Shown: one piece after another, positions 4,944 through 26,489 of the stretch
Position numbering within the stretch: position 1 is the stretch's first letter
Layout of the letters: every line of letters begins with the position of its first letter
IMG/VR virus record: IMGVR_UViG_3300022872_000001
Coordinates: 62,001 to 126,000 of that record
DNA from: a virus
Reading direction: 5' to 3' (one strand)
Length of the DNA stretch: 64,000 bases
The notes under the pieces: generated by a model
Database searches by the model: none
What the model was told of the DNA's origin: nothing
What the model saw: the letters and a program-made list of their open reading frames with translations, nothing else
Program-made: the position numbers and the translations under genes

Positions 4944-6254
4944 ATGTCAGTCAATTACGTTGCAGCTGGAATCGAAGCTTACTCTGGCACACCTGGGCAG
5001 CTTCACGTTACGTATGAAGCCAACGAAAAAGAATCCTCTCACTTTGGTAGGAAATATAAACAATGGCTTACCACAGATAAGACGATAACGTACGCCAAAG
5101 GAGGTGGTAAGAAATCCATTATGGCTGCACCCTCTGACGTAATGGTACCTATCGGTTCCGCTGCTTTCGTTAAGGCATGTGGCTTAACTAAGATTCTGGC
5201 AAATCCTATCCATAAGAGTTTTGATAAGACCGCGTTTGAAGCTTTAGGTATTGAATCTATTGTGGATTCAGGAGGCTTCCAGATGTTGAAAGGAACTGTG
5301 CCTTTCGTACATCCGGATGATGTGGTCAAACGCTATAACGACACAGCCAATATTGGTATGCCCTTGGACTTACCTGTGCGTGGTTCTGTTGAGCATCTGT
5401 ATTTTGATCCGGTATCCAAGATGATCAAAGCCAACGATAAATATATTCTGGATAGGCTGAATCCGGGTATTGATCTGGCTTTGATTAGTCATGGTACGTC
5501 CTTGGAAAGGCGCAAACGTCGCTTGGATGTCCTTGATCGGGATGCGAAAGTTATAGCCATTGCAGGTTTGAACATTAAACCTGCGCCGGGTGTTGACCAT
5601 GTCTACAATTCAGTAGAGAATTTGATGTACGTCATCCATAGGTATCATAAGACTGCACGATACTTCCACGTCCTAGGTGTTACGTCCAAGCTATGGATTT
5701 TTATATACGCACTTCTGGACGCTACAGGCTATGTGAAGTCTATTGGTGGAGATTCGGTCAGCCATAGACTGGGTGCCTTAGTAGGTATGTACGACACCTA
5801 TGATTTTGACTCAGTAGAATTGAATCGTAAGACGCCTTACAAAACATCTCTTCCATGCAATTGCCCTATCTGCTCGGTAGTAGATGATTCGCGCATCATT
5901 CAGGAATCTATGATCTTGGAGAGTCACAATCTATGGGTTAGGTCTAAGCAGACAGAATTACTGAGCGATATGGCAAAATCTTATGTCAAGGGAACCTTGC
6001 CTATACGGGAGGTTTATAAGATTCTCCGTCTCACCATGGGTGAACCTCGTTTCGTTGCCATGATTCGTTACATAGAGGAAATCATGGTGACCAATAAATT
6101 CAAACCATTAAGGCATGGTAAAAAGGCTGGCTCCTTATTTGCAGTAGCCCCCAAACATGAAATCTCGGATTCAACCAAAGCCTTAAGCGGTCACTACAAA
6201 GAGGTACTTTCGAAATATGAAAAATTCCACAAAGTTAGTTTCTTCAAAAAATAA
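4944..6254 (+). CDS. dpdA: DpdA-like DNA-guanine transglycosylase
   Basis: A 436-residue member of the tRNA-guanine transglycosylase superfamily. Visible signature residues: DSGGFQ at 108-113 (base-binding loop with the catalytic Asp), LDLPVRG around Asp142, a GGDS block with Asp270 where the nucleophile is expected, and a zinc site C305-x-C-x2-C310 with His328 as likely fourth ligand. In phages such paralogues (DpdA) exchange guanine in DNA for preQ0-type 7-deazaguanines instead of acting on tRNA. The nearby folE and queE genes support that role, which protects phage DNA from restriction. A tRNA-directed activity is not excluded. Confidence 0.85.
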   Translation: MSVNYVAAGIEAYSGTPGQLHVTYEANEKESSHFGRKYKQWLTTDKTITYAKGGGKKSIMAAPSDVMVPIGSAAFVKACGLTKILANPIHKSFDKTAFEALGIESIVDSGGFQMLKGTVPFVHPDDVVKRYNDTANIGMPLDLPVRGSVEHLYFDPVSKMIKANDKYILDRLNPGIDLALISHGTSLERRKRRLDVLDRDAKVIAIAGLNIKPAPGVDHVYNSVENLMYVIHRYHKTARYFHVLGVTSKLWIFIYALLDATGYVKSIGGDSVSHRLGALVGMYDTYDFDSVELNRKTPYKTSLPCNCPICSVVDDSRIIQESMILESHNLWVRSKQTELLSDMAKSYVKGTLPIREVYKILRLTMGEPRFVAMIRYIEEIMVTNKFKPLRHGKKAGSLFAVAPKHEISDSTKALSGHYKEVLSKYEKFHKVSFFKK

Positions 6255-6654
6255 GAAGGATAAGAGTAAAAATAAGAGTAAAAATAAGAGTAAGGATAAA
6301 ACCAAGAAGAAACCGTTGGTACGCACCTTAGGTGGTTTGGTATTTTATCCGAAACTTAAGAAAACCCGCACTGATATTTTTTATTCAGTTGCAGAATGGA
6401 TAGAAGCTAAGAAGCCAGACAATGTTTATATCCATGATGCCCTGGAAACCTTGAATACAGCGAACATTGAAATAGTTGACGCTGTGTGTCACAGAGGTGT
6501 TTATACGAAAACCATAGTTCGACCTATGGTTACAACCACAGTAAATAAGATAGGATTACGCAATTTGCATCCGCGACAAAGTCCTACAATGGTTAAAACT
6601 ATGGCCGGCATTCACGTTGCTGACGTGCGCGACCATCACAAAATGGTCTACTAA
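6217..6654 (+). CDS. hypothetical protein with lysine-rich repeated N-terminus
   Basis: A 145-residue protein, family not recognised. Residues 10-33 are almost entirely Lys/Ser/Asn/Asp, encoded by near-perfect 12-base tandem repeats (AGTAAAAATAAG) at about 6264-6300. The rest looks globular. The ATG at 6217 overlaps the end of dpdA by 38 bases and has no clear ribosome site, so coupling or an internal start is possible. It lies between dpdA and folE, and a DNA-binding accessory role would fit the basic arm, but this is inference. Confidence 0.6.
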   Translation: MKNSTKLVSSKNKKDKSKNKSKNKSKDKTKKKPLVRTLGGLVFYPKLKKTRTDIFYSVAEWIEAKKPDNVYIHDALETLNTANIEIVDAVCHRGVYTKTIVRPMVTTTVNKIGLRNLHPRQSPTMVKTMAGIHVADVRDHHKMVY

Positions 6655-6667
6655 CAAGGAATTATTT

Positions 6668-7330
6668 ATGCAATATTCAAAAGATGTGGAAGTAGGAATG
6701 GCTGTTCATGAACACCTAATTGCGCGTGGTGTTGAGACTCCCTTCACTTTCAAAGAGCCTAATAAGGCCTCGATTGAACAGCATTTCATCGGCATCATGC
6801 AGGAGATCGGTTTGGACCTAGCAGATGATTCATTGATCGAAACACCAAAACGATTAGCCAAGCTATACACTACCGAGTTCTGTTCTGGTTTAGACTATCG
6901 TAATTTCCCCAAAGCTACCGTGGTAGAAAACAAGATGTGCTATGACGAAATGGTTCTGGAACGGAATGTACAGGTATACAGTCTCTGTGAACATCATTTT
7001 TTACCTGTGGTAGGCGGAGCCTTCGTGGCTTACATTCCGAATGAAAAGGTAATCGGTCTGTCCAAGCTTAATCGTATCGTTGACTTCTTTAGCCGTCGTC
7101 CTCAGATTCAGGAACGGTTAACTGCGCAGATTCAGGAGACCCTTAAGTTTCTTTTGGAAACGGATAACGTTGCGGTAGTCATTCAAGCTGAACATATGTG
7201 CGTTAAGCTGCGTGGTGTTGAGGATGCTTGCAGTGACACTACAACATCGAAATTGAGCGGCACATTCAAGACCAATCCTACTACGCGGGCTGAATTCTTC
7301 TCCCTGTGCAAAGGCTTGTTGCCTGTATGA
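6668..7330 (+). CDS. folE: GTP cyclohydrolase I
   Basis: A 220-residue FolE. It converts GTP to 7,8-dihydroneopterin triphosphate, the first step toward preQ0. Zinc and catalytic residues are intact: CEHH at 107-110 and HMCVKLRG at 176-183, followed by the expected RGVEDA and the C-terminal TRAEFF segment. The ATG at 6668 has AAGGA 7 bases upstream; longer starts have none. With queE and dpdA in the same operon it should feed 7-deazaguanine synthesis for DNA modification. QueD, needed for the next step, was not found in the window. Confidence 0.95.
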   Translation: MQYSKDVEVGMAVHEHLIARGVETPFTFKEPNKASIEQHFIGIMQEIGLDLADDSLIETPKRLAKLYTTEFCSGLDYRNFPKATVVENKMCYDEMVLERNVQVYSLCEHHFLPVVGGAFVAYIPNEKVIGLSKLNRIVDFFSRRPQIQERLTAQIQETLKFLLETDNVAVVIQAEHMCVKLRGVEDACSDTTTSKLSGTFKTNPTTRAEFFSLCKGLLPV

Positions 7331-7356
7331 TATCACCTGATTCCGAAGGACACATA

Positions 7357-7821
7357 ATGGCCATCCTTGAATTAACAAATAAGCCTATCATTGCAGATAT
7401 CGACGGATGCTGTTTAGATCCTGAGGAACGTATTCCTAACGCTGAGGCTAAGGATTGGGAAGGATACCATGCATTATGGCGCACAGACACGCCAATTATG
7501 GCGGGTTGCCTTACCTACGCCTTGTTCATCGAGTCAGGTCACAATCTGATTTTCGTTACAGCCCGGGAAGAAAAAGCCAGGGAATACACTCTGTTCCAAC
7601 TTCGGAAGTTCATATCACCTAACGTAACCTCTGATATGTTGTTGATGCGGCCCAATGACAGCTATTCCATTCCGGATGTGGTATTGAAACCCCAATTGGT
7701 TCAGGACGCAGGTTACAAAATTGAGGATATCTTGATGGTATTCGAAGACCGAACTGTAATGGTTAATGAGTGGCGACGATTGGGTGTCATCTGTTATCAA
7801 ACCGCACAACGCGACGATTAA
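7357..7821 (+). CDS. HAD-superfamily phosphatase (polynucleotide kinase 3'-phosphatase-like)
   Basis: A 154-residue protein with HAD motifs in order: IADIDGC near residue 11 (nucleophile Asp of DxD), VTARE (motif II Thr) and a C-terminal VFEDR (motif IV acidic residue). The size and VTAR motif resemble the 3'-phosphatase domain of phage polynucleotide kinases or 5'-nucleotidases, without a kinase half. The ATG at 7357 has AAGGA 7 bases upstream. It sits between folE and queE, so it could dephosphorylate a pterin or nucleotide intermediate; end repair of nucleic acid is equally possible. Confidence 0.75.
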   Translation: MAILELTNKPIIADIDGCCLDPEERIPNAEAKDWEGYHALWRTDTPIMAGCLTYALFIESGHNLIFVTAREEKAREYTLFQLRKFISPNVTSDMLLMRPNDSYSIPDVVLKPQLVQDAGYKIEDILMVFEDRTVMVNEWRRLGVICYQTAQRDD

Positions 7822-7828
7822 GGCTCCT

Positions 7829-8089
7829 ATGGCTTTCTCTCTGTTTCCCAAATTGGTATATGGAATACAAAAGGTAACGTTTCATCCTAAATCAGCTATA
7901 GATTATATACTGGGTGATACGGTATACGTAATTATGGATCCCTTGGAACCTAGCATGGGAGCAGAGGGAATAATAACCCTAGTTTATCCGGATGACACAT
8001 ATCAGGTTGTTCTCACAGGTTTGAATGTTGGCGTATCTTTGCGCGTAAATAAGAAACAGTTAATAAATAAAAGGTTTGAAAATGAGTAA
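7829..8089 (+). CDS. hypothetical small protein
   Basis: An 86-residue protein starting at the ATG after AAGG (7819-7822). The middle is rich in beta-type segments (GDTVYVIM, GIITLVYPDDTYQVVL), which resembles an SH3/KOW-like barrel. It overlaps queE by 8 bases, so it belongs to the same operon. No function can be assigned. Confidence 0.6.
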   Translation: MAFSLFPKLVYGIQKVTFHPKSAIDYILGDTVYVIMDPLEPSMGAEGIITLVYPDDTYQVVLTGLNVGVSLRVNKKQLINKRFENE

Positions 8090-8888
8090 AGTTATCCCTA
8101 TAGTTTCTGTCATTCAAAATGTGGATCGTAACGTAAAAGCTAAGGAATATGATGCATTAGATGGCGATCTTCTCGTCACTTCCATATTCCGCACCATTCA
8201 AGGCGAAGGTCCCTACGCAGGTTACCCTTCTGTCTTCGTTCGGTTAGCTGGTTGCAACTTTGGTTCCAAGGATTCCAATTGCCAGTTTTGTGATTCTTTT
8301 TTCGGATTCGATCAAGGCCGGCGTGTTTCTTCCTTGCAGCTACTTGAAGAACTTACCAGTCTGCCAGGTTATAACTCTCAGGATGTGTTGGTCGTCACAG
8401 GCGGCGAGCCAACGCTGCAACTCGCACTTATCGAATTGTTGGTTAAGGCTAACCTGTATTTCGCGCATGTGCAGATTGAAACGAATGGTACTCAGTCTGG
8501 ATTCTTTAAGCGCGTAGAAGAATTGAATGTCCAGCGTCAGTTCATGACCGTGGTGAGCCCTAAGGCATCCTACCTAGCTAAGCGCTATTCGGAGCTTTCT
8601 CCTATCGTTATGTGGAACGCTACCTGTTTGAAGTTTGTTGTTGATTCCGATCCTGAAAGTCCACATCATATCGTGCCTCAATGGGCTTTTGATTCGCAGA
8701 AGAAGATCTACGTTTCTCCTATGGCAGTGTATCTCAAACCTTATGCTGGTGAAGTATCCAGCATCTGGGAGGACGGTTTGATCGATAAGGCAGCTACTGA
8801 AAAGAACTACAAATATGCGGCTGAGTACGCAATGAAACATAATGTCCTACTGTCGGTACAGACACATTTATTCCTGGGGTTGGCATAA
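8082..8888 (+). CDS. queE: 7-carboxy-7-deazaguanine synthase (radical SAM)
   Basis: A 268-residue QueE. It rearranges 6-carboxytetrahydropterin to 7-carboxy-7-deazaguanine. Signature blocks: FRTIQGEGPYAG at about 36-47, a cluster-binding C58-x8-C67-x2-C70 and a SAM-binding GGEP at 107-110. The spacing between the first two cysteines is longer than the classic CX3CX2C, as in several QueE subtypes. The ATG at 8082 has AAAGG 7 bases upstream. The gene lies in an operon with folE and dpdA and overlaps both neighbours by a few bases. Confidence 0.92.
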   Translation: MSKVIPIVSVIQNVDRNVKAKEYDALDGDLLVTSIFRTIQGEGPYAGYPSVFVRLAGCNFGSKDSNCQFCDSFFGFDQGRRVSSLQLLEELTSLPGYNSQDVLVVTGGEPTLQLALIELLVKANLYFAHVQIETNGTQSGFFKRVEELNVQRQFMTVVSPKASYLAKRYSELSPIVMWNATCLKFVVDSDPESPHHIVPQWAFDSQKKIYVSPMAVYLKPYAGEVSSIWEDGLIDKAATEKNYKYAAEYAMKHNVLLSVQTHLFLGLA

Positions 8889-10245: not shown

Positions 10246-10596
10246 ATGACTCAAATTTATAAAGACCACAACGGCGTTACTGTCACAGCTATTCCAGCGT
10301 CTGTTAAGATTGAAAATCTTCCTGTACAAGAGGGGCACGTCTACACTGTGGATTCAGGGATTCGCCAACAAGTTATTCACTTTCAGTCTGGTCCTGTCCC
10401 TACAAGTGGTGTCAACGGTTTGACCAACGAAGCTTTGCTAACCATCCTTATTCACCGTACAAAGATTCTTGATGCCAAATTCGGATGCGATGAGAACAAA
10501 CGTGCTATCCAACATATGGAAGAAGCCCTCGTAAACCTTGAGGTACGCACAGCACGTCGTATGGTTAGAGGTGTCGAAGGTAAGGAAGTTACATGA
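10246..10596 (+). CDS. Acb2/Tad1-type hairpin-domain protein
   Basis: A 116-residue protein. Residues 46-112 match the C-terminal helical-hairpin pattern seen in phage cyclic-nucleotide sponges: a FQSGP segment, GVNGLTNEALL, a helix rich in conserved charged residues (CDENKRAIQHMEEAL) and the terminal RTARRMVRGVEG. Proteins with this hairpin (Acb2, Tad1) sequester cyclic oligonucleotide or ADPR signals and so block CBASS or Thoeris defence. Many family members are untested, so signal binding here is inference. AAGGA lies 7 bases before the ATG. Confidence 0.7.
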   Translation: MTQIYKDHNGVTVTAIPASVKIENLPVQEGHVYTVDSGIRQQVIHFQSGPVPTSGVNGLTNEALLTILIHRTKILDAKFGCDENKRAIQHMEEALVNLEVRTARRMVRGVEGKEVT

Positions 10597-10712
10597 TTAA
10601 ATGTGAGGTTATAACTCCCTCTTTATCCTCTGCTGTAGCTGATTGGTATCAAAGGGCTGCCAATTCTCTAGAAGTTTCCCGTTTCCTATCTGGTTCCTCA
10701 TCTGTCTTTTGA
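10593..10712 (+). CDS. hypothetical protein, upstream part of an apparently frameshifted gene
   Basis: A 39-codon frame starts with an ATGA overlap at the end of the hairpin gene and stops at TGA 10710-10712 in the context GTC TTT TGA C. Dropping one T (or a +1 shift on TTT) joins it to the frame that runs through 10711-11109, giving about 172 residues. The site resembles the UUU/CUU UGA C type of +1 shift. A simple mutation or a sequence error in the T run is equally possible. Confidence 0.5.
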   Translation: MIKCEVITPSLSSAVADWYQRAANSLEVSRFLSGSSSVF

Positions 10713-10749: not shown

Positions 10750-11109
10750 ATGGATACGTATCAGGAGGGACTTGCTATTCTAAGTACAGATAGAGCTTTC
10801 CCAGGTACAGTAAGCATTTGTCTTCATGTATTGCCTAGCACCCGTCAGAAATTGACCGCAGGTTCTCTAATAGCATTCTCTCATGACTATGCGAGATTCA
10901 ATCTTGCTTGTAAATACTTGGAATGGACGGTACATGGTACCAACGATAAGTGTCTATCTCTGTCCTTGATTAAAGCCACTCAGTGGGGACAGCGTGATGA
11001 CGTAATGTGGGATTCTGAATTAGGTGAGAGTGTTGCTGCTCATTCCTTCCGTTATAAATTAAAAGATAAGAGGTTATACCGTGGAAAAAGAAGTAATCAA
11101 GTTTCTTGA
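10750..11109 (+). CDS. hypothetical protein, downstream part of an apparently frameshifted gene
   Basis: A 119-residue frame from the ATG at 10750. It has no ribosome site, and the frame is already open and protein-like upstream (DLPPDSTWTKTF from 10711), which argues that translation normally enters from the 10593 frame. The sequence has hydrophobic beta-type segments and no recognised motif. The last bases overlap the next gene by 29. Confidence 0.55.
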   Translation: MDTYQEGLAILSTDRAFPGTVSICLHVLPSTRQKLTAGSLIAFSHDYARFNLACKYLEWTVHGTNDKCLSLSLIKATQWGQRDDVMWDSELGESVAAHSFRYKLKDKRLYRGKRSNQVS

Positions 11110-11984: not shown

Positions 11985-12305
11985 ATGGCTGATTTCTTCA
12001 TTACTGAATCACAGGTTATTGGTAAGGTTCATGCTCTACGTAGTACTTGTAAACAGCATCATTTGAATCTTAAATACGGCTTTGTTATTGACGCTTTGTC
12101 TCGTGCCGTGGGCTGTAAGAGCCATGCTGATTTTCTAACGACAATCCGAAACCACAAACCAGTTAAGGCTTTCAGTTTATCTGTATTCATAGAACGCCTA
12201 TCTAGTCTAACCTCTCTTGAATTTGCAATTAAGGTAGAGGCAGTTCTTATTGATACGCAGTACGCAGAGAATTTTAATAACCATATCAAAGAAGCCGAGG
12301 AATAA
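11985..12305 (+). CDS. hypothetical helical protein
   Basis: A 106-residue mostly helical protein with a GCKSHADFL block, typical of small phage proteins of unknown function. AAGGAG lies 7 bases before the ATG. Unusually, the bases directly after its TAA stop stay open in the same frame for 21 codons and encode two CxxC pairs (see findings). Confidence 0.6.
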   Translation: MADFFITESQVIGKVHALRSTCKQHHLNLKYGFVIDALSRAVGCKSHADFLTTIRNHKPVKAFSLSVFIERLSSLTSLEFAIKVEAVLIDTQYAENFNNHIKEAEE

Positions 12306-12456
12306 ACATATACGTGCTACAGATGCGGCCTCTATGAACAAAGCACATGTTCATCCTGTAATTCGAATTAATGCGCTGGATGATTTTCAGATCGAAACAA
12401 TATCGAACATCAATAAGCTTATCAAAAGTCTTAAAGATCAACTCAAGGAAATTAAA

Positions 12457-13134
12457 ATGCCTCAAGAAATTAAAGTTTTAAATCATGGATCCATTCGTTT
12501 GGTAGATCACATGGGTAGTGACCTTTCTGTTGTTAGGTCGGCCCGTGTTAGTTATGATGCTGAATGGCGCGCAGGGGAAGACGCAGGTAAAGATGCAAAA
12601 CTCATTAACTACCTGATGAAAAATCATCATACTTCTCCTTTCGAATCTGTTACCTTTACCTTTGAAGTCAAAGCCCCTATATTTGTGTTTCGCCAGTGGC
12701 ATCGTCATCGCACCTGGTCTTTCAATGAAATCTCTGCGCGTTACTCGGAATTACCGGAAGAGTATTACGTACCTGAGGTGTGCAAGATTACAAGCCAATC
12801 TGTAAATAATAAGCAGCAGCGAACTGAAGAAATTATTGAGTCAGCTATCTATGTAAAAGATCTTATAGATAGACAATGCGCGGGCGCGTTTGCTACCTAT
12901 AAAGAACTACTAGCCAAAGGTTGCCCGCGTGAACTTGCCCGAGGTGTTTTGCCAGTTAATACCTACAGTAAAATGTTTGCCACAATTGATCTGCATAACC
13001 TTCTTGGATTCATTCGTTTGCGTGATCATAGCCATGCCCAATATGAGATTCAGGTATATGCTCAAGCCATGCTGGAACTGATTGAACCTATTGTACCAGA
13101 ATCAATTAAGGCTTTTAAATCAACCTTGGTTTAA
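12457..13134 (+). CDS. thyX: flavin-dependent thymidylate synthase
   Basis: A 225-residue ThyX. It makes dTMP from dUMP using FAD and methylenetetrahydrofolate. The signature RHR-x7-S is at residues 83-93 (RHRTWSFNEIS), followed by the conserved ARYSE. The ATG at 12457 has AAGGAA 7 bases upstream. The frame is open back to 12334 (MNKAHVH...), so a 41-residue N-terminal extension is possible but has no ribosome site. Directly downstream lies a 3' remnant of the unrelated synthase ThyA, which suggests that thyX has replaced thyA here. Confidence 0.93.
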   Translation: MPQEIKVLNHGSIRLVDHMGSDLSVVRSARVSYDAEWRAGEDAGKDAKLINYLMKNHHTSPFESVTFTFEVKAPIFVFRQWHRHRTWSFNEISARYSELPEEYYVPEVCKITSQSVNNKQQRTEEIIESAIYVKDLIDRQCAGAFATYKELLAKGCPRELARGVLPVNTYSKMFATIDLHNLLGFIRLRDHSHAQYEIQVYAQAMLELIEPIVPESIKAFKSTLV

Positions 13135-13299: not shown

Positions 13300-14454
13300 T
13301 CGATTCACTGAGCGCCTTTTCACAGTAATGTGATTAGCAAACCTTGTTAAACGGGGGATAGCTCACGTAGCCAATCCCGTGCTAACTTTCTAATTAATTG
13401 TAGGTGTACATTTTAGGTATCCAATTTAATATCGTTATTATTTAGCGAGGTTAATATGGATATACTATGTGGTGTTTATAAGATAACTAGTAAGGCGACA
13501 AAAAGGTTTTATTACGGAAGTTCTGCTAATATGCGTAAACGTAAGAAAGGTCACTTAAAGGCACTTTCAAACAATAGACATCATAATAGTAGACTACAGG
13601 CAGTGTACAACTCTTACGGGTTACATGACCTATCTTTTACCGTAGTAAAGCTATGTAGTATTACTAGAGCGCGAAAATTAGAGCAACAATACATTACTGA
13701 TAATTGTAAAAATAAGAAAATGCTAAATATAGGCTTAGGCGCCATAGGTGGTGATAACTTAACTAACAATCCAAACCGTAAAACTATAGTTGCGAAAATT
13801 ACTAAAGCTGTGCAGGACCGTATGAATACAATGACCAAGGCAGAACGAGTTGAAGCTTTTGGTAGACAAGGTCCTGCAAATGGTATGTATGGTAAAACTC
13901 ATACAAAAGAAGCTAGAGCAAAAATATCTAAAAACAATACTGGTAAAACTATAGATCATAGTGGTTGGGTTCCAACTTCTGAAAATGTCGCTAACTATCA
14001 AAAGGCAGCAAGACTAAGAGTTGCACAAGAGGATTACGTAAACCCTTTCACAGATAAAGTACACAGTAAGAAGACTTTAAAACATTTGTCTAACCTTGCT
14101 AAAGCTCGGTATGCTTCAGGCATACTTCCAGGTAATACACGCAAAGTTAAGATAGAAGGTAAAGTATATGAAAGTGTTTCTGCTGCAAGCCGAGCAATCG
14201 GCAAAGGTAAACCTACTATCGTATATCGCTTAAAATCTCCTTACTGGGACTACATATATTTAGATTAAATGCCTAACGACTATCGAACGCACGTATTAAA
14301 TACGGAAGCTAGTAGAGTAGAGCCAAGTGGCTCGAAGTGCAAGGATTCCTTTAGTTAGGAATGTGATATAGTCTACTCTGCATAGTGATATGCAGCAGCC
14401 TGTAACTGAGGACGACAGGCGGTTATAGTCTAACGAACTATAGCGAATATAATG
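13300..14454 (+). mobile_element. group I intron in the thyA remnant
   Basis: A 1155-base intron splits ThyA between Arg and Ser of the QRSC active-site motif. P1 can be drawn: exon/intron bases 13296-13302 (GCGTTCG) pair with 13309-13315 (TGAGCGC), with a U.G wobble at the 5' splice site after T13299. The 3' end is G14454, as expected for the terminal guanosine. Core-like elements include AATCCCGTGCTAAC near 13373-13386, GATATAGTCT near 14365-14374 and a P8-like hairpin 14378-14384/14389-14395. It carries a GIY-YIG gene, like the T4 td intron, but sits about 20 bases upstream of the T4 insertion point as I recall it. Confidence 0.88.
13456..14268 (+). CDS. GIY-YIG homing endonuclease of the group I intron
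   Basis: A 270-residue protein. The N-terminal catalytic domain shows GVYKITSKATKRFYYGSS (the two Tyr blocks of GIY-YIG) and a following Arg/His-rich region. The C-terminal part has NUMOD3-like DNA-binding repeats (GKTHTKEARAKIS) and a final helix-turn-helix-like AASRAIGKGKPTIVYRL. It lies wholly inside the intron, with GCGAGG 6 bases before the ATG. Such enzymes cut intronless alleles and spread the intron. Its codon use is more AT-rich than that of neighbouring genes, in keeping with a mobile origin. Confidence 0.93.
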   Translation: MDILCGVYKITSKATKRFYYGSSANMRKRKKGHLKALSNNRHHNSRLQAVYNSYGLHDLSFTVVKLCSITRARKLEQQYITDNCKNKKMLNIGLGAIGGDNLTNNPNRKTIVAKITKAVQDRMNTMTKAERVEAFGRQGPANGMYGKTHTKEARAKISKNNTGKTIDHSGWVPTSENVANYQKAARLRVAQEDYVNPFTDKVHSKKTLKHLSNLAKARYASGILPGNTRKVKIEGKVYESVSAASRAIGKGKPTIVYRLKSPYWDYIYLD

Positions 14455-21785: not shown

Positions 21786-22250
21786 ATGGTAAATCAAAAA
21801 GTTGAGGAACTCCGGGAGAAACAACGCGTTCAATCAATCGCCTCCCTAAACGTCCTTGTTGATGCCTTAAAATCTACGGTAAGTGACTACCTTATTCGTG
21901 CAGGTCAGGCAGAGGAACTTGCTGGTGTTTTGCTTAATGAGAAACTTACACCGGAGCAGTTATTCGAATTGGCTAGTATCACCATAGGCAAGCATGTTAG
22001 AGACAAAGCGAACGAACGCGCTGTTCACCAACAACAGATATTGCAGACCACTTCGCTTGCAGTAAATAATGTACAACAAATGCTAATTATGTCCGATGAA
22101 CACCTGGATATAATTAAGATTCGTAGTGCAGTAAATATCATAGTACAAGGGTTAGCAACAGCCCTAGGCAATATGAAACACTTTGAGAAGGCAGTGAAGC
22201 TTCCAAGGTCCGATCAACAATCAACGCAATCAACAACGGAGAATTCCTGA
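21786..22250 (+). CDS. hypothetical helical protein
   Basis: A 154-residue, almost entirely helical protein with a Ser/Thr/Gln-rich tail. It lies between the sigma factor and the ssDNA-binding-type gene and overlaps the latter by one base (TGATG). No family recognised. Confidence 0.6.
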   Translation: MVNQKVEELREKQRVQSIASLNVLVDALKSTVSDYLIRAGQAEELAGVLLNEKLTPEQLFELASITIGKHVRDKANERAVHQQQILQTTSLAVNNVQQMLIMSDEHLDIIKIRSAVNIIVQGLATALGNMKHFEKAVKLPRSDQQSTQSTTENS

Positions 22251-23797
22251 TGGGACAACAAGGGACGAGCCTAGAAGAGATGCGGGGTCCAGGTGGTAAG
22301 GATAAACCTCGCGTTGAAGATCAGGTTCAACTGTACAAATTCCCCAAGCAGAAATATGTGGAAGTTCGAATCTTCGGACCTGTATTCACATACGGTGGCT
22401 TTTGGGTGAACACCACACGCAAGGATGGCAAATCGAAGACCCAGTTCTTCGTCAACGCTCCTTCTTACGACCCAAAGACTCAGACACTTGATAGCTCGGT
22501 GTATGATCCTTGGCGTGATCTGTATGAACAACAGAAGGATTTGCCAAAGGAAGAACGGCAAGTTTCTTTCACAGTAAATGCGTATGTGAATGCAATTCAT
22601 CGGGCGACTCAAAAACAGGCTCCTAAGCATATGCCTAAGCCTACAAAGGCTGAACGCAAGTCTGGTTTTAAGGACAAAGATTCTGATTCATATACGCCGG
22701 TGGTGGCTCTTCGTTTACCATCTAGCGCAATTACCAAGCTCAAAGAGCAAGGTGCTTTGAATGTGCGTACAAAGAAAGGTGAAACTAAAACATATCCTTT
22801 GACGCACGAAAAATATGGCTGCAATGTTCGCGTTAAGTACGATGAAGAAAAATCCCCTGCGGATCGTTATTCGGTAGTTATCGGGGACAAGGCGGCCTTG
22901 ACTGAAAAAGAGTTGGAACTCTTGAAATGGGATTTATCGAATCTCGTTGAAAAGGAAACCGACGAAGAAGTGAAACGCAATTTTGAATCCTGGGCTAAAC
23001 GTAACGGAGTAGATATGGCAACCAAAGCAAAGAAACGCAAATCAGAAGAAGTTGAATTGGACGAAGATGAGGATGAGGACGAAGAAGAGACCTCCTCCAG
23101 CAAAAAGAAGGGTAAGGGCAAGAAAGCTGCCAAGTCCAAGAAGAAAGGTAAGTCCCGTGATGAGGACGACGAAGAAGATGAGGACGACGATGAGGACCTT
23201 GACGAGGACGAGGACGACGAGGATGAGCCTAAGAAGTCCAAAGGTAAAGCCAAGGCTAAATCTAAGTCCAAGGGCAAGAAATCTTCCAGTTCTGATGAGG
23301 ATGAGGATGAAGATGAAGATGAAGATGAGGACGACCTCGATGACGACGAGGACGATGAGGATGACGACGAGGACGACGAGGACGATGAGCCTAAGAAAAA
23401 AGGCAAGTCCAAGGTAAAGGCTAAGTCCAAGGGCAAGAAATCCAAGTCTGAAGATGAAGATGAAGATGAGGACGACGAGGACGAGGACGACGACGAGGAT
23501 GATCTCGATGAGGATGATGAGGATGATGAAGATGAGGATGATGAAGATGAGGATGATGAGCCTAAGAAAAAAGGCAAGTCCAAGTCCAAGGTAAAGGCTA
23601 AGTCCAAGAAATCTTCCAAGTCGGACGACGAGGACGAAGATGAGGACGAAGATGAGGACGAAGATGAGGATGACCTCGATGAGGATGAGGATGACGAAGA
23701 TGAGGATGAGGATGATGAGCCTAAGAAAAAAGGCAAGTCCAAGGTGAAAGCTAAATCCAAACCTGAAAAGAAAGCCGCAAAGAAGAAAAAGAAGTAA
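22250..23797 (+). CDS. ssDNA-binding-type protein with long acidic/basic repeat tail
   Basis: A 515-residue protein. Residues 1-260 look like a globular nucleic-acid binding domain with aromatic/basic strands (LYKFPKQKYVEVRIFGP, GGFWVNTTRKDGKSKTQFF). From about 265 to the end there are alternating blocks of Asp/Glu (up to about 30 acidic residues) and Lys/Ser (KKKGKSKVKAKSK). Acidic tails are typical of phage ssDNA-binding proteins, and the position before recA supports this role, but the tail is far longer than usual. GGAG lies 7 bases before the ATG. Assignment is by context and layout, not by a diagnostic motif. Confidence 0.6.
   Translation: MGQQGTSLEEMRGPGGKDKPRVEDQVQLYKFPKQKYVEVRIFGPVFTYGGFWVNTTRKDGKSKTQFFVNAPSYDPKTQTLDSSVYDPWRDLYEQQKDLPKEERQVSFTVNAYVNAIHRATQKQAPKHMPKPTKAERKSGFKDKDSDSYTPVVALRLPSSAITKLKEQGALNVRTKKGETKTYPLTHEKYGCNVRVKYDEEKSPADRYSVVIGDKAALTEKELELLKWDLSNLVEKETDEEVKRNFESWAKRNGVDMATKAKKRKSEEVELDEDEDEDEEETSSSKKKGKGKKAAKSKKKGKSRDEDDEEDEDDDEDLDEDEDDEDEPKKSKGKAKAKSKSKGKKSSSSDEDEDEDEDEDEDDLDDDEDDEDDDEDDEDDEPKKKGKSKVKAKSKGKKSKSEDEDEDEDDEDEDDDEDDLDEDDEDDEDEDDEDEDDEPKKKGKSKSKVKAKSKKSSKSDDEDEDEDEDEDEDEDDLDEDEDDEDEDEDDEPKKKGKSKVKAKSKPEKKAAKKKKK
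23040..23790 (+). repeat. degenerate tandem repeats encoding D/E and K/S blocks
   Basis: GAxGAx-rich runs alternate with copies of CCTAAGAAAAAAGGCAAGTC, at about 23390, 23560 and 23720, with shorter variants between. The repeats are in frame and encode the tail of the 22250-23797 protein. Such arrays change length easily by slippage or unequal recombination, so copy number may vary between isolates. Long open frames on the opposite strand here are by-products of the repeats. Confidence 0.85.
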
Positions 23798-23879: not shown

Positions 23880-26489
23880 ATGGCCAAAGACAAGAAAGTA
23901 TCTAAATCGAAAGATGAGGATAAGAAGTCTAAGAAAACCAAAGCGGTAAAGCCGGAGAAGGTAGTAAAGGAAAAGAAATCTGCCAAGAAAGAAAAGGCAG
24001 GTTTTGATATGAATTCATTCATGGACAATACTCTTGATAGTATTGCCAAACGACAAGGATTCGAATCGTCTTCTCTTGAAGTATCTCCTCCCATGTCCAC
24101 AGGCTTGCTAGCCTTGGATCTGATTACAGGAGGAGGCATTCGTCCTTGCATGTTGACAGCCGCAGGCGGAGAACAGTGTGCGAAGACCACAGTCGCCTTG
24201 ACGGCTATGGGTGCAGCTATTCAAGAAAATATTCCATTGATTGCCTTCATCGATTATGAGGGCTGCGTTACTTCGGATACCTTAATAGGATATGGCAAAG
24301 GAAAACACGCACGTTTAGATGATCTCTTTGATCTTTCTATGGTTGGTACTTGGAAATCGGGCACCTGGCCAGGCCAAGTTCGTCGAGATATAGATACAGT
24401 TGAGCCGGGACATCGTTATGGAGGCACAGGTGTTCGTACCGGAGAACTCTTCTATAAGGGATTAAAGTCCACTACTGAGGTATCCTTTAACACAGGACAT
24501 AAACTTCGAGGCCATGGACATAAGATGTATGTACTCCGTAACGGCTATGCTACTGTTGTACCTCTCGAGAATTTGTGTGTAGGCGAACAAGTTCTCGTAC
24601 TCCGTTCTTCCAGTATCGAGGAAATATGGAAGCCTGTATTTGGGTATGGTAAGAAGATTTCTCAACGCTACGAAATATCTAATCTCGGGAATGTGCGTTC
24701 CCTAGACATGTTAACCGAGGATAGCCTAACCTCTTCCACAGGAAAAGCCTTTACCCGTAAGCGTCAAGTTAAAGGACGCATGTTGAAACCGCAGGCTGTA
24801 AAAGATGGACACGTGTGGGTATCACTCTGCGATGGAACAATTCAGAAGAAAGTTTTGGTACATCGTTTAGTTGCGCGGGCCTTTATAGGACCTGTTCCTG
24901 CAAATTCTCCTTTGGTTCTCCATTGGAACGATGATCCAAAAGACAATCGTGTTTCGAATTTGCGTTATGGAGACGAGATCGATAACGCCATGGATCGTAA
25001 GGTACGTGGACGTGCGTCAAAAGGTGCAGAAGTACACACCTCAGTTCTCACAGAAACTAAAGTTAAAAAGATTCAAGCCCTGAATGGCACAACCACCCTT
25101 CAGAAAACTGCTGATAAATTTGGGGTTTCGAATGCCACAATCTATCAGATATGGGCAGGTAATGCCTGGGAACATCTAAATGAGGAGCGTATTAGTCTTG
25201 ACCTGACTCAAGAAATTCTTGATGACTACGAAGTCGCATCCGTAGTATGCGTTAAGAAAACGGGCAAGAAGGAACACGTTTTTGATATTTCCTTGCGCGG
25301 TGTTGCTAACGATATCATGCCTCATTCAATCATAACTAATGGTGTTGTAACACATAACTCTACCAAAAACTCGAAAACCTATGTCCACAGCATCCTTAAG
25401 GGAATGGGCATCAAGCTCTCTATGGATGAGGTATTTGGTAAACAAGGTAAGGATGGCAAATGGGAGATTGCTCCTCGTGTGCGTTATCGTGCGGAGACAA
25501 TTCTTGAGCGATTCTATGAATGGTTAGGTTCCATTCTCCGTGAACTGCCTGATAAGCGCTATGTAGAAGGTGGTTGGTGGTTAGTATTTGAGGATAACAA
25601 AAAGAATAAACTGAAACTAGCCAACGACATGGACACTTCCATGACACGCAAATACGGCAATGGTATTTGGGTTCAGGCACAGGATGGAAAATTGCAAGGT
25701 ATCGTGTTCCTGGATTCCTACACTGCCATGAATCCAGAAGCAAAGGATGAGGAAGACATTAGCAATCAACTGTCTGTAAAAGCTTCGGCGTTCTCCAAGC
25801 AACTAGAGCGCATCAAGGGGCGCATGGCTCAAAAGATGGTTACCGTATATGGATTGAATCATCTACGGGATAATCCCATGGCTATGTTTGGTCCAAAGGA
25901 AACTGAAAAGGGCGGTAAAGCCTTGCAGCAGTTCTCTGACGTGCGTTTTCGTCAGACCTCTCGTGCCTTGTCCGCTCCACCCTTTAGCCCTAAGGCAGGT
26001 AAAAAGGCAGGCAAGGCTATCTACGATGAGGTAGAGAAATCGGCTGAGTTTGAGGGGGTTGATGTGTATCGTTACGTGCATGTCAAGGCTATCAAGAACA
26101 AACTGTGGACTCCTCAGCGGGAGTGCTATCTTCGTATCTGGGTAGAAGATGGGGCTGGTATTGCGCGGGGTATCGATCCGGTATTCGATACTATTTTCTA
26201 CCTCCGGGAAACTGGTCAGCTCTCTGGTAAACGTAAGGCATTCAAACTGGACATTGATGGTTTAGGTAAAGCTAAGAAACCTATTCCTTGGGAATTCCTG
26301 AAAAAATGGATTCTTGGTAACAAGGAAACGATGACCAAAATTTCCGCCGCAATGGGATATAAGCCAGTTAATCTACGCAAATATTGTTTCAAGCAAATTG
26401 TGAACGGTTCTGGAGAACGTCTTTTCATTGAATCTCAAACGGCAAGGCAAGGGGCTGTAGGTGGTGATGAAGAAGGGGATGACGAATAA
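23880..26489 (+). CDS. RecA/UvsX-like recombinase precursor with intein
   Basis: An 869-residue precursor; removal of a 365-residue intein leaves 504 residues. The N-terminal 40 residues are Lys-rich. A RecA-type P-loop, GGEQCAKTT, lies near residue 100, with Ala in place of the usual Gly before Lys. The FIDYEG strand follows and is cut by the intein; the mature protein would read FIDYEGSTKN. Later blocks include GIVFLDSYTAMNP and VYGLNHLRDNP, typical of the RecA core. It catalyses strand exchange in phage recombination-dependent replication. GGAG precedes the ATG. The terminator at 23826-23860 lies just upstream. Confidence 0.85.
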   Translation: MAKDKKVSKSKDEDKKSKKTKAVKPEKVVKEKKSAKKEKAGFDMNSFMDNTLDSIAKRQGFESSSLEVSPPMSTGLLALDLITGGGIRPCMLTAAGGEQCAKTTVALTAMGAAIQENIPLIAFIDYEGCVTSDTLIGYGKGKHARLDDLFDLSMVGTWKSGTWPGQVRRDIDTVEPGHRYGGTGVRTGELFYKGLKSTTEVSFNTGHKLRGHGHKMYVLRNGYATVVPLENLCVGEQVLVLRSSSIEEIWKPVFGYGKKISQRYEISNLGNVRSLDMLTEDSLTSSTGKAFTRKRQVKGRMLKPQAVKDGHVWVSLCDGTIQKKVLVHRLVARAFIGPVPANSPLVLHWNDDPKDNRVSNLRYGDEIDNAMDRKVRGRASKGAEVHTSVLTETKVKKIQALNGTTTLQKTADKFGVSNATIYQIWAGNAWEHLNEERISLDLTQEILDDYEVASVVCVKKTGKKEHVFDISLRGVANDIMPHSIITNGVVTHNSTKNSKTYVHSILKGMGIKLSMDEVFGKQGKDGKWEIAPRVRYRAETILERFYEWLGSILRELPDKRYVEGGWWLVFEDNKKNKLKLANDMDTSMTRKYGNGIWVQAQDGKLQGIVFLDSYTAMNPEAKDEEDISNQLSVKASAFSKQLERIKGRMAQKMVTVYGLNHLRDNPMAMFGPKETEKGGKALQQFSDVRFRQTSRALSAPPFSPKAGKKAGKAIYDEVEKSAEFEGVDVYRYVHVKAIKNKLWTPQRECYLRIWVEDGAGIARGIDPVFDTIFYLRETGQLSGKRKAFKLDIDGLGKAKKPIPWEFLKKWILGNKETMTKISAAMGYKPVNLRKYCFKQIVNGSGERLFIESQTARQGAVGGDEEGDDE
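24264..25358 (+). mobile_element. intein with NUMOD4/HNH homing endonuclease inside recA
   Basis: The insert spans precursor residues Cys129 to Asn493 and is followed by Ser494. The N-terminal splice block begins CVTSDTLI; the C-terminal blocks read EHVFDISLRG and IITNGVVTHN, ending in the required His-Asn. Between them, residues 246-275 look like NUMOD4 (EEIWKPVFGY...YEISNLGNVRSL) and residues 326-375 like an HNH nuclease (VHRLVARAFIG...VLHWNDDPKDNRVSNL). Protein splicing should restore recombinase. Insertion into the conserved active-site strand of RecA limits precise loss, a common intein niche. Confidence 0.9.

Follow-up and report, generated by a model that had tools for sequence, protein, structure and literature searches.

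Does a small gene in a run of unknown phage genes encode a sponge for the nucleotide signals of bacterial immunity, and to which sponge family would it then belong? The question is posed by one reading frame in a 64,000-nucleotide stretch of viral DNA (the window, which spans bases 62001-126000 of a virus record 192,170 bases long), in which a sequence-only reading saw a candidate sponge with an Acb2/Tad1 hairpin. The reading frame is real: it lies where it had been placed, on the plus strand, encodes 116 amino acids, and contains in its translation the motifs that had been quoted. A ribosome-binding-like stretch, AAGGAATT, stands shortly 5' of the ATG. Scans for a promoter and a terminator around the gene gave no signal above chance, and an Rfam search of the whole window returned 0 matches. 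Homologue pairs within the subfamily have dN/dS values of 0.10-0.14, that is, purifying selection, so the gene family is a true one; for the 116-aa protein against its own closest relatives the ratio is saturated.

Table 1. Parts of the tad1-like gene and the reading frame that follows it (window coordinates).
Feature	Coordinates	Strand	Basis
tad1-like gene, 116 aa, from start ATG at 10246 through stop at 10596	10246..10596	+	ORF; PDB sequence search, profile, PHROG 2428, AlphaFold2, Foldseek
N-terminal beta domain, residues 1-50	10246..10395	+	AlphaFold2 model; CbTad1 N-terminus aligned by profile
Helix alpha1, residues 61-78, with conserved R71 and L75 (CbTad1 F82 position)	10426..10479	+	Model, alignment
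Shortened alpha1-alpha2 loop LDAKFGCDEN, residues 75-84	10468..10497	+	Family alignment
Helix alpha2, residues 82-108, with conserved N84, R101 and R105	10489..10569	+	Model, alignment
Next ORF; its start codon overlaps the stop of tad1 (ATGA), and 39 codons precede its own in-frame stop	10593..10712	+	Sequence, translation

The family of the protein is given by sequence comparison. All matches in a single-sequence phmmer search of the PDB were Tad1 proteins (CmTad1 8kbb, E = 8.2e-11; phiKZ gp184 8y6v, 1.8e-7; CbTad1 7uav, 0.02), and a profile built from 15 homologues matched CmTad1 at 1e-28, CbTad1 from residue 1 to its end at about 9e-24, and gp184 at 2.5e-18. The phage protein family PHROG 2428 matches the 116-aa protein with an E-value of 1.5e-30 and also contains, at 8e-47, the experimentally proven Tad1 of phage SBSphiJ7 (PMC12043709). 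Used as tblastn queries, the 116-aa protein and SBSphiJ7 Tad1 found 129 and 135 phage records, respectively, in nearly identical phage groups; a scan with the Tad1 of Thanatos-2 yielded no relative. The Pfam hairpin model PF24729 (Acb2_Tad1_hairpin) gave no match to the 116-aa protein at E<=1, and an NCBIfam search made no call for it. PF24729 places SBSphiJ7 Tad1 above its cut-off (34.2 bits) and f2b1 below it, and misses six of the eight Tad1 homologues tested, so the missing score reflects a narrow model. The ORF product is thus a full-length Tad1 homologue and not Acb2.

The predicted fold agrees with this assignment. Published Tad1 structures have an antiparallel sheet, beta1-beta4, followed by two long C-terminal helices, alpha1-alpha2 (PMC12043709), and an AlphaFold2 monomer model computed from a 57-row alignment (pLDDT 92.2, pTM 0.80) matches this architecture with four strands (residues 2-6, 12-15, 32-37 and 40-46) and two long helices (61-78 and 82-108). 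When the model was compared with the PDB by Foldseek, all 17 matches below an E-value of 1e-3 were CmTad1 or CbTad1, with TM scores of 0.71-0.81, and the next match followed at E 0.9; matches in BFVD carry the name 'Acb2/Tad1 hairpin domain-containing'. This comparison, named beforehand as a check on the sponge proposal, gave the Tad1 fold, and the core of the proposal is accordingly supported by the profile and by the predicted fold. The joint Acb2/Tad1 label stands in its Tad1 half, and its Acb2 half is dropped. Likewise, the first 45 residues do differ from the short Acb2, as had been observed; according to profile and model they are an ordinary Tad1 beta domain, and the difference exists because Tad1 has an N-terminal beta domain of its own.

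Could the protein nevertheless be something other than a Tad1 sponge? An Acb2-type sponge, short and all-helical, that carries an added N-terminal extension would be in keeping with Pfam, where a single model, PF24729, covers the hairpins of both families; this is very improbable, as that model gives the protein no score, the N-terminal region aligns with the beta domain of Tad1, and Acb2 chains appear neither among the PDB sequence matches at E<=1, with single sequence or profile, nor among the listed Foldseek matches. An all-helical protomer of the Acb2 type is also contradicted by the beta strands of the model and by the same lack of Acb2 in the sequence and listed fold matches. Another use of the Tad1 fold, for instance as part of the virion or in assembly, is suggested by the label 'structural protein' on orf71 of Lactococcus phage 1706 and on others, and by the copies in PspYZU05 and Thanatos, which adjoin capsid-related genes. 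We consider this improbable too: such labels are annotations and not tested functions, the functionally proven SBSphiJ7 protein (PMC12043709) belongs to the same PHROG, and the gene looks accessory, being found at unrelated places in unrelated phages and absent from Achromobacter phage Motura, where a homologue was searched for. Among the homologues of the protein, many bear the label hypothetical protein, ABC transporter ATPase or structural protein. A Tad1-family sponge is therefore the best explanation of the gene, with a probability of about 85%.

What would such a sponge do? Tad1 sequesters gcADPR as well as cyclic di- and trinucleotides; in characterised members, cADPR isomers share one set of pockets with cyclic dinucleotides, and the trimer interfaces of a hexamer hold the cyclic trinucleotides (PMC12043709). 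The oligomer, the ligands and the anti-defence effect of the 116-aa protein are extrapolated here from these members. Dimers would be expected to form by way of the beta domain and the helices, and these would probably assemble further into a hexamer. As a non-enzymatic sponge, by homology, the protein would hold nucleotide immune signals tightly and leave them uncleaved: TIR-made cADPR isomers might enter a pocket made up of conserved loops together with the C-terminal tail and the helices of the partner, and CBASS cyclic trinucleotides might be held at the trimer interfaces. The free signal would then drop during infection, and the effectors of Thoeris (ThsA) and/or CBASS would stay inactive. 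Most likely, the protein is a sponge for cADPR isomers and/or CBASS cyclic oligonucleotides. Carrying a sponge can also cost a phage, since the Panoptes system senses Acb2, a related sponge (PMC12657218).

The ligand preference of the protein is a separate matter, and it turns on the pocket. The positions of R109 and R113 of CbTad1 are invariant in all 113 rows of the family alignment (R101 and R105 in the 116-aa protein), and that of N92 is kept in 109 of them (N84). These three residues and F82 reportedly contact gcADPR in the structure study of CbTad1, and the residue numbers fit the CbTad1 sequence. The three are all retained in the 116-aa protein; at the F82 position the aromatic residue is absent, Leu75 standing in its place, and the adjoining helix-helix loop is shorter by one residue. 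An aromatic with an 11-residue F82-N92 segment occurs in 53 of the 113 rows, including SBSphiJ7, Cm, Cb and phiKZ Tad1, and Leu with a 10-residue segment in 42, including the 116-aa protein, proportions that are skewed by the scan patterns, one of which required Leu and another Phe. The Leu form was also found among matches carrying the neutral pattern KLEEALMW. On a tree built without the columns that define the split, at least four changes between the aromatic and Leu states are required, so that the paired substitution and deletion seem to have arisen or reverted more than once, although this tree rests on few columns and has many open forks. None of the solved Tad1 structures found by the PDB sequence and profile searches has the Leu form, which recurs in many uncharacterised homologues; given these many homologues, an aromatic at the F82 position is not established as a defining feature of Tad1.

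With the aromatic lost and the loop shortened, the gcADPR/cyclic dinucleotide pocket may function differently from that of the characterised Tad1 proteins. The change suggests a possible shift in the exact choice of ligand, and to judge from the alignment it would be a better reason than the N-terminus to expect a different preference. Does it go as far as a Tad1-fold sponge that has no gcADPR binding and counters only CBASS or type III CRISPR, through cyclic trinucleotides, or that takes a different ADPR isomer? The pairing of Leu with the deletion, its repeated occurrence on the tree and the absence of the Leu form among the solved structures all point that way, but the presumed pocket residues N84, R101 and R105 are kept and the two classes were sampled with a bias, and on balance we regard this as unlikely, though deserving of weight. 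That the Leu/short-loop proteins form a widespread functional class, whose remodelled pocket captures a signal other than that of the aromatic class (another ADPR-derived molecule or only cyclic oligonucleotides), is a tentative idea and probably wrong. The split offers a direct, testable prediction of ligand choice among Tad1 proteins.

The carrier of this Tad1-family gene is a BcepSauron/Motura-like large myovirus: the terminase of the record is about 56% identical to those of Burkholderia phages BcepSauron and BcepSaruman and 44% identical to that of Motura. Close relatives of the Tad1 gene are carried by a Polaromonas chromosome and by an uncultured betaproteobacterium, and together the phage and bacterial relatives make a betaproteobacterial host probable. 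Another close relative lies in a 222-kb viral contig, directly after queE and folE. In the window, the tad1-like gene is one of a series of small unknown genes, all in the same direction, that lies between queE (8076-8888) and thyX (12250-13134); none of eight neighbouring small ORFs reaches the Pfam cut-off, so the earlier description of the surroundings holds. The rest of the record was searched for another Tad1 and for Tad2, and neither was found. The overlapping ORF at the 3' end of the tad1-like gene is a probable operon partner. This 39-aa ORF continues in the +1 frame into the ORF at 10750-11109 at GTC TTT TGA C, a junction that resembles the prfB +1 frameshift site; the two may form a single gene of 171 aa, divided either by a programmed frameshift or through a sequencing error, and no homologue of it was found in the phage collection.

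Other genes in the window deserve mention in their own right. Positions 4944-8888 encode a tRNA-guanine transglycosylase-like protein (a weak match, 25% identical to the Motura TGT), FolE (PF01227) and a QueE-like radical SAM protein, a probable gene set for 7-deazaguanine DNA modification. A free-standing GIY-YIG homing endonuclease with an I-TevI-like DNA-binding domain and NUMOD3 is found at 13456-14268. The RecA gene (23880-26489) is broken by an intein-like insert with NUMOD4 and HNH endonuclease motifs; directly before it, at the position of the ssDNA-binding protein gene of Motura, 22250-23797 encodes a product whose C-terminal half consists of long acidic/lysine-rich repeats.

Variation is also seen among Tad1 homologues elsewhere. 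Burkholderia phage FLC9 gp131 (L013 739-1755) is an unusual fusion of a cyclophilin-type prolyl isomerase (PF00160, 2.5e-44) with a C-terminal Tad1 domain. The mostly Acinetobacter-type phage copies (loci L002, L007, L008, L044 and L046-L099) share an N-terminal extension, about 35-40 residues long (LLIDHFLGYA..ELEPQEID), and this form is also present in five plasmid-collection records, all from A. baumannii. In IMG/VR contigs L139-L178, the same C-terminal hairpin stands behind several very different N-terminal regions, so that the hairpin looks like a mobile module. Since PF24729 fails to recognise many relatives of Tad1, sponge-gene counts that rely on this Pfam hairpin model are too low.

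The 116-aa protein is an ordinary but well-supported addition to the known Tad1 family, and it places a Tad1-type counter-defence gene in the BcepSauron/Motura-like phage group. It resembles the Tad1 proteins of SBSphiJ7, Cm, Cb and phiKZ in its full-length profile match and shares with CmTad1 and CbTad1 the fold of a beta-sheet and two helices (TM about 0.7-0.8). It differs from all four in having Leu75 for Phe/Tyr and an alpha1-alpha2 loop shorter by one residue, from the Tad1 norm in having Asn97 where Trp is usual, and from SBSphiJ7 Tad1 (142 aa) in its smaller size and shorter N-terminal region. With Acb2 it has in common the proposed sponge role and the helical hairpin described for both families, but Acb2 has no beta domain and is absent from the sequence matches at E<=1 and from the listed fold matches. 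Tad2 (PF11195), whose published fold differs from that of Tad1, is comparable in the proposed outcome, namely sequestration of the signal.
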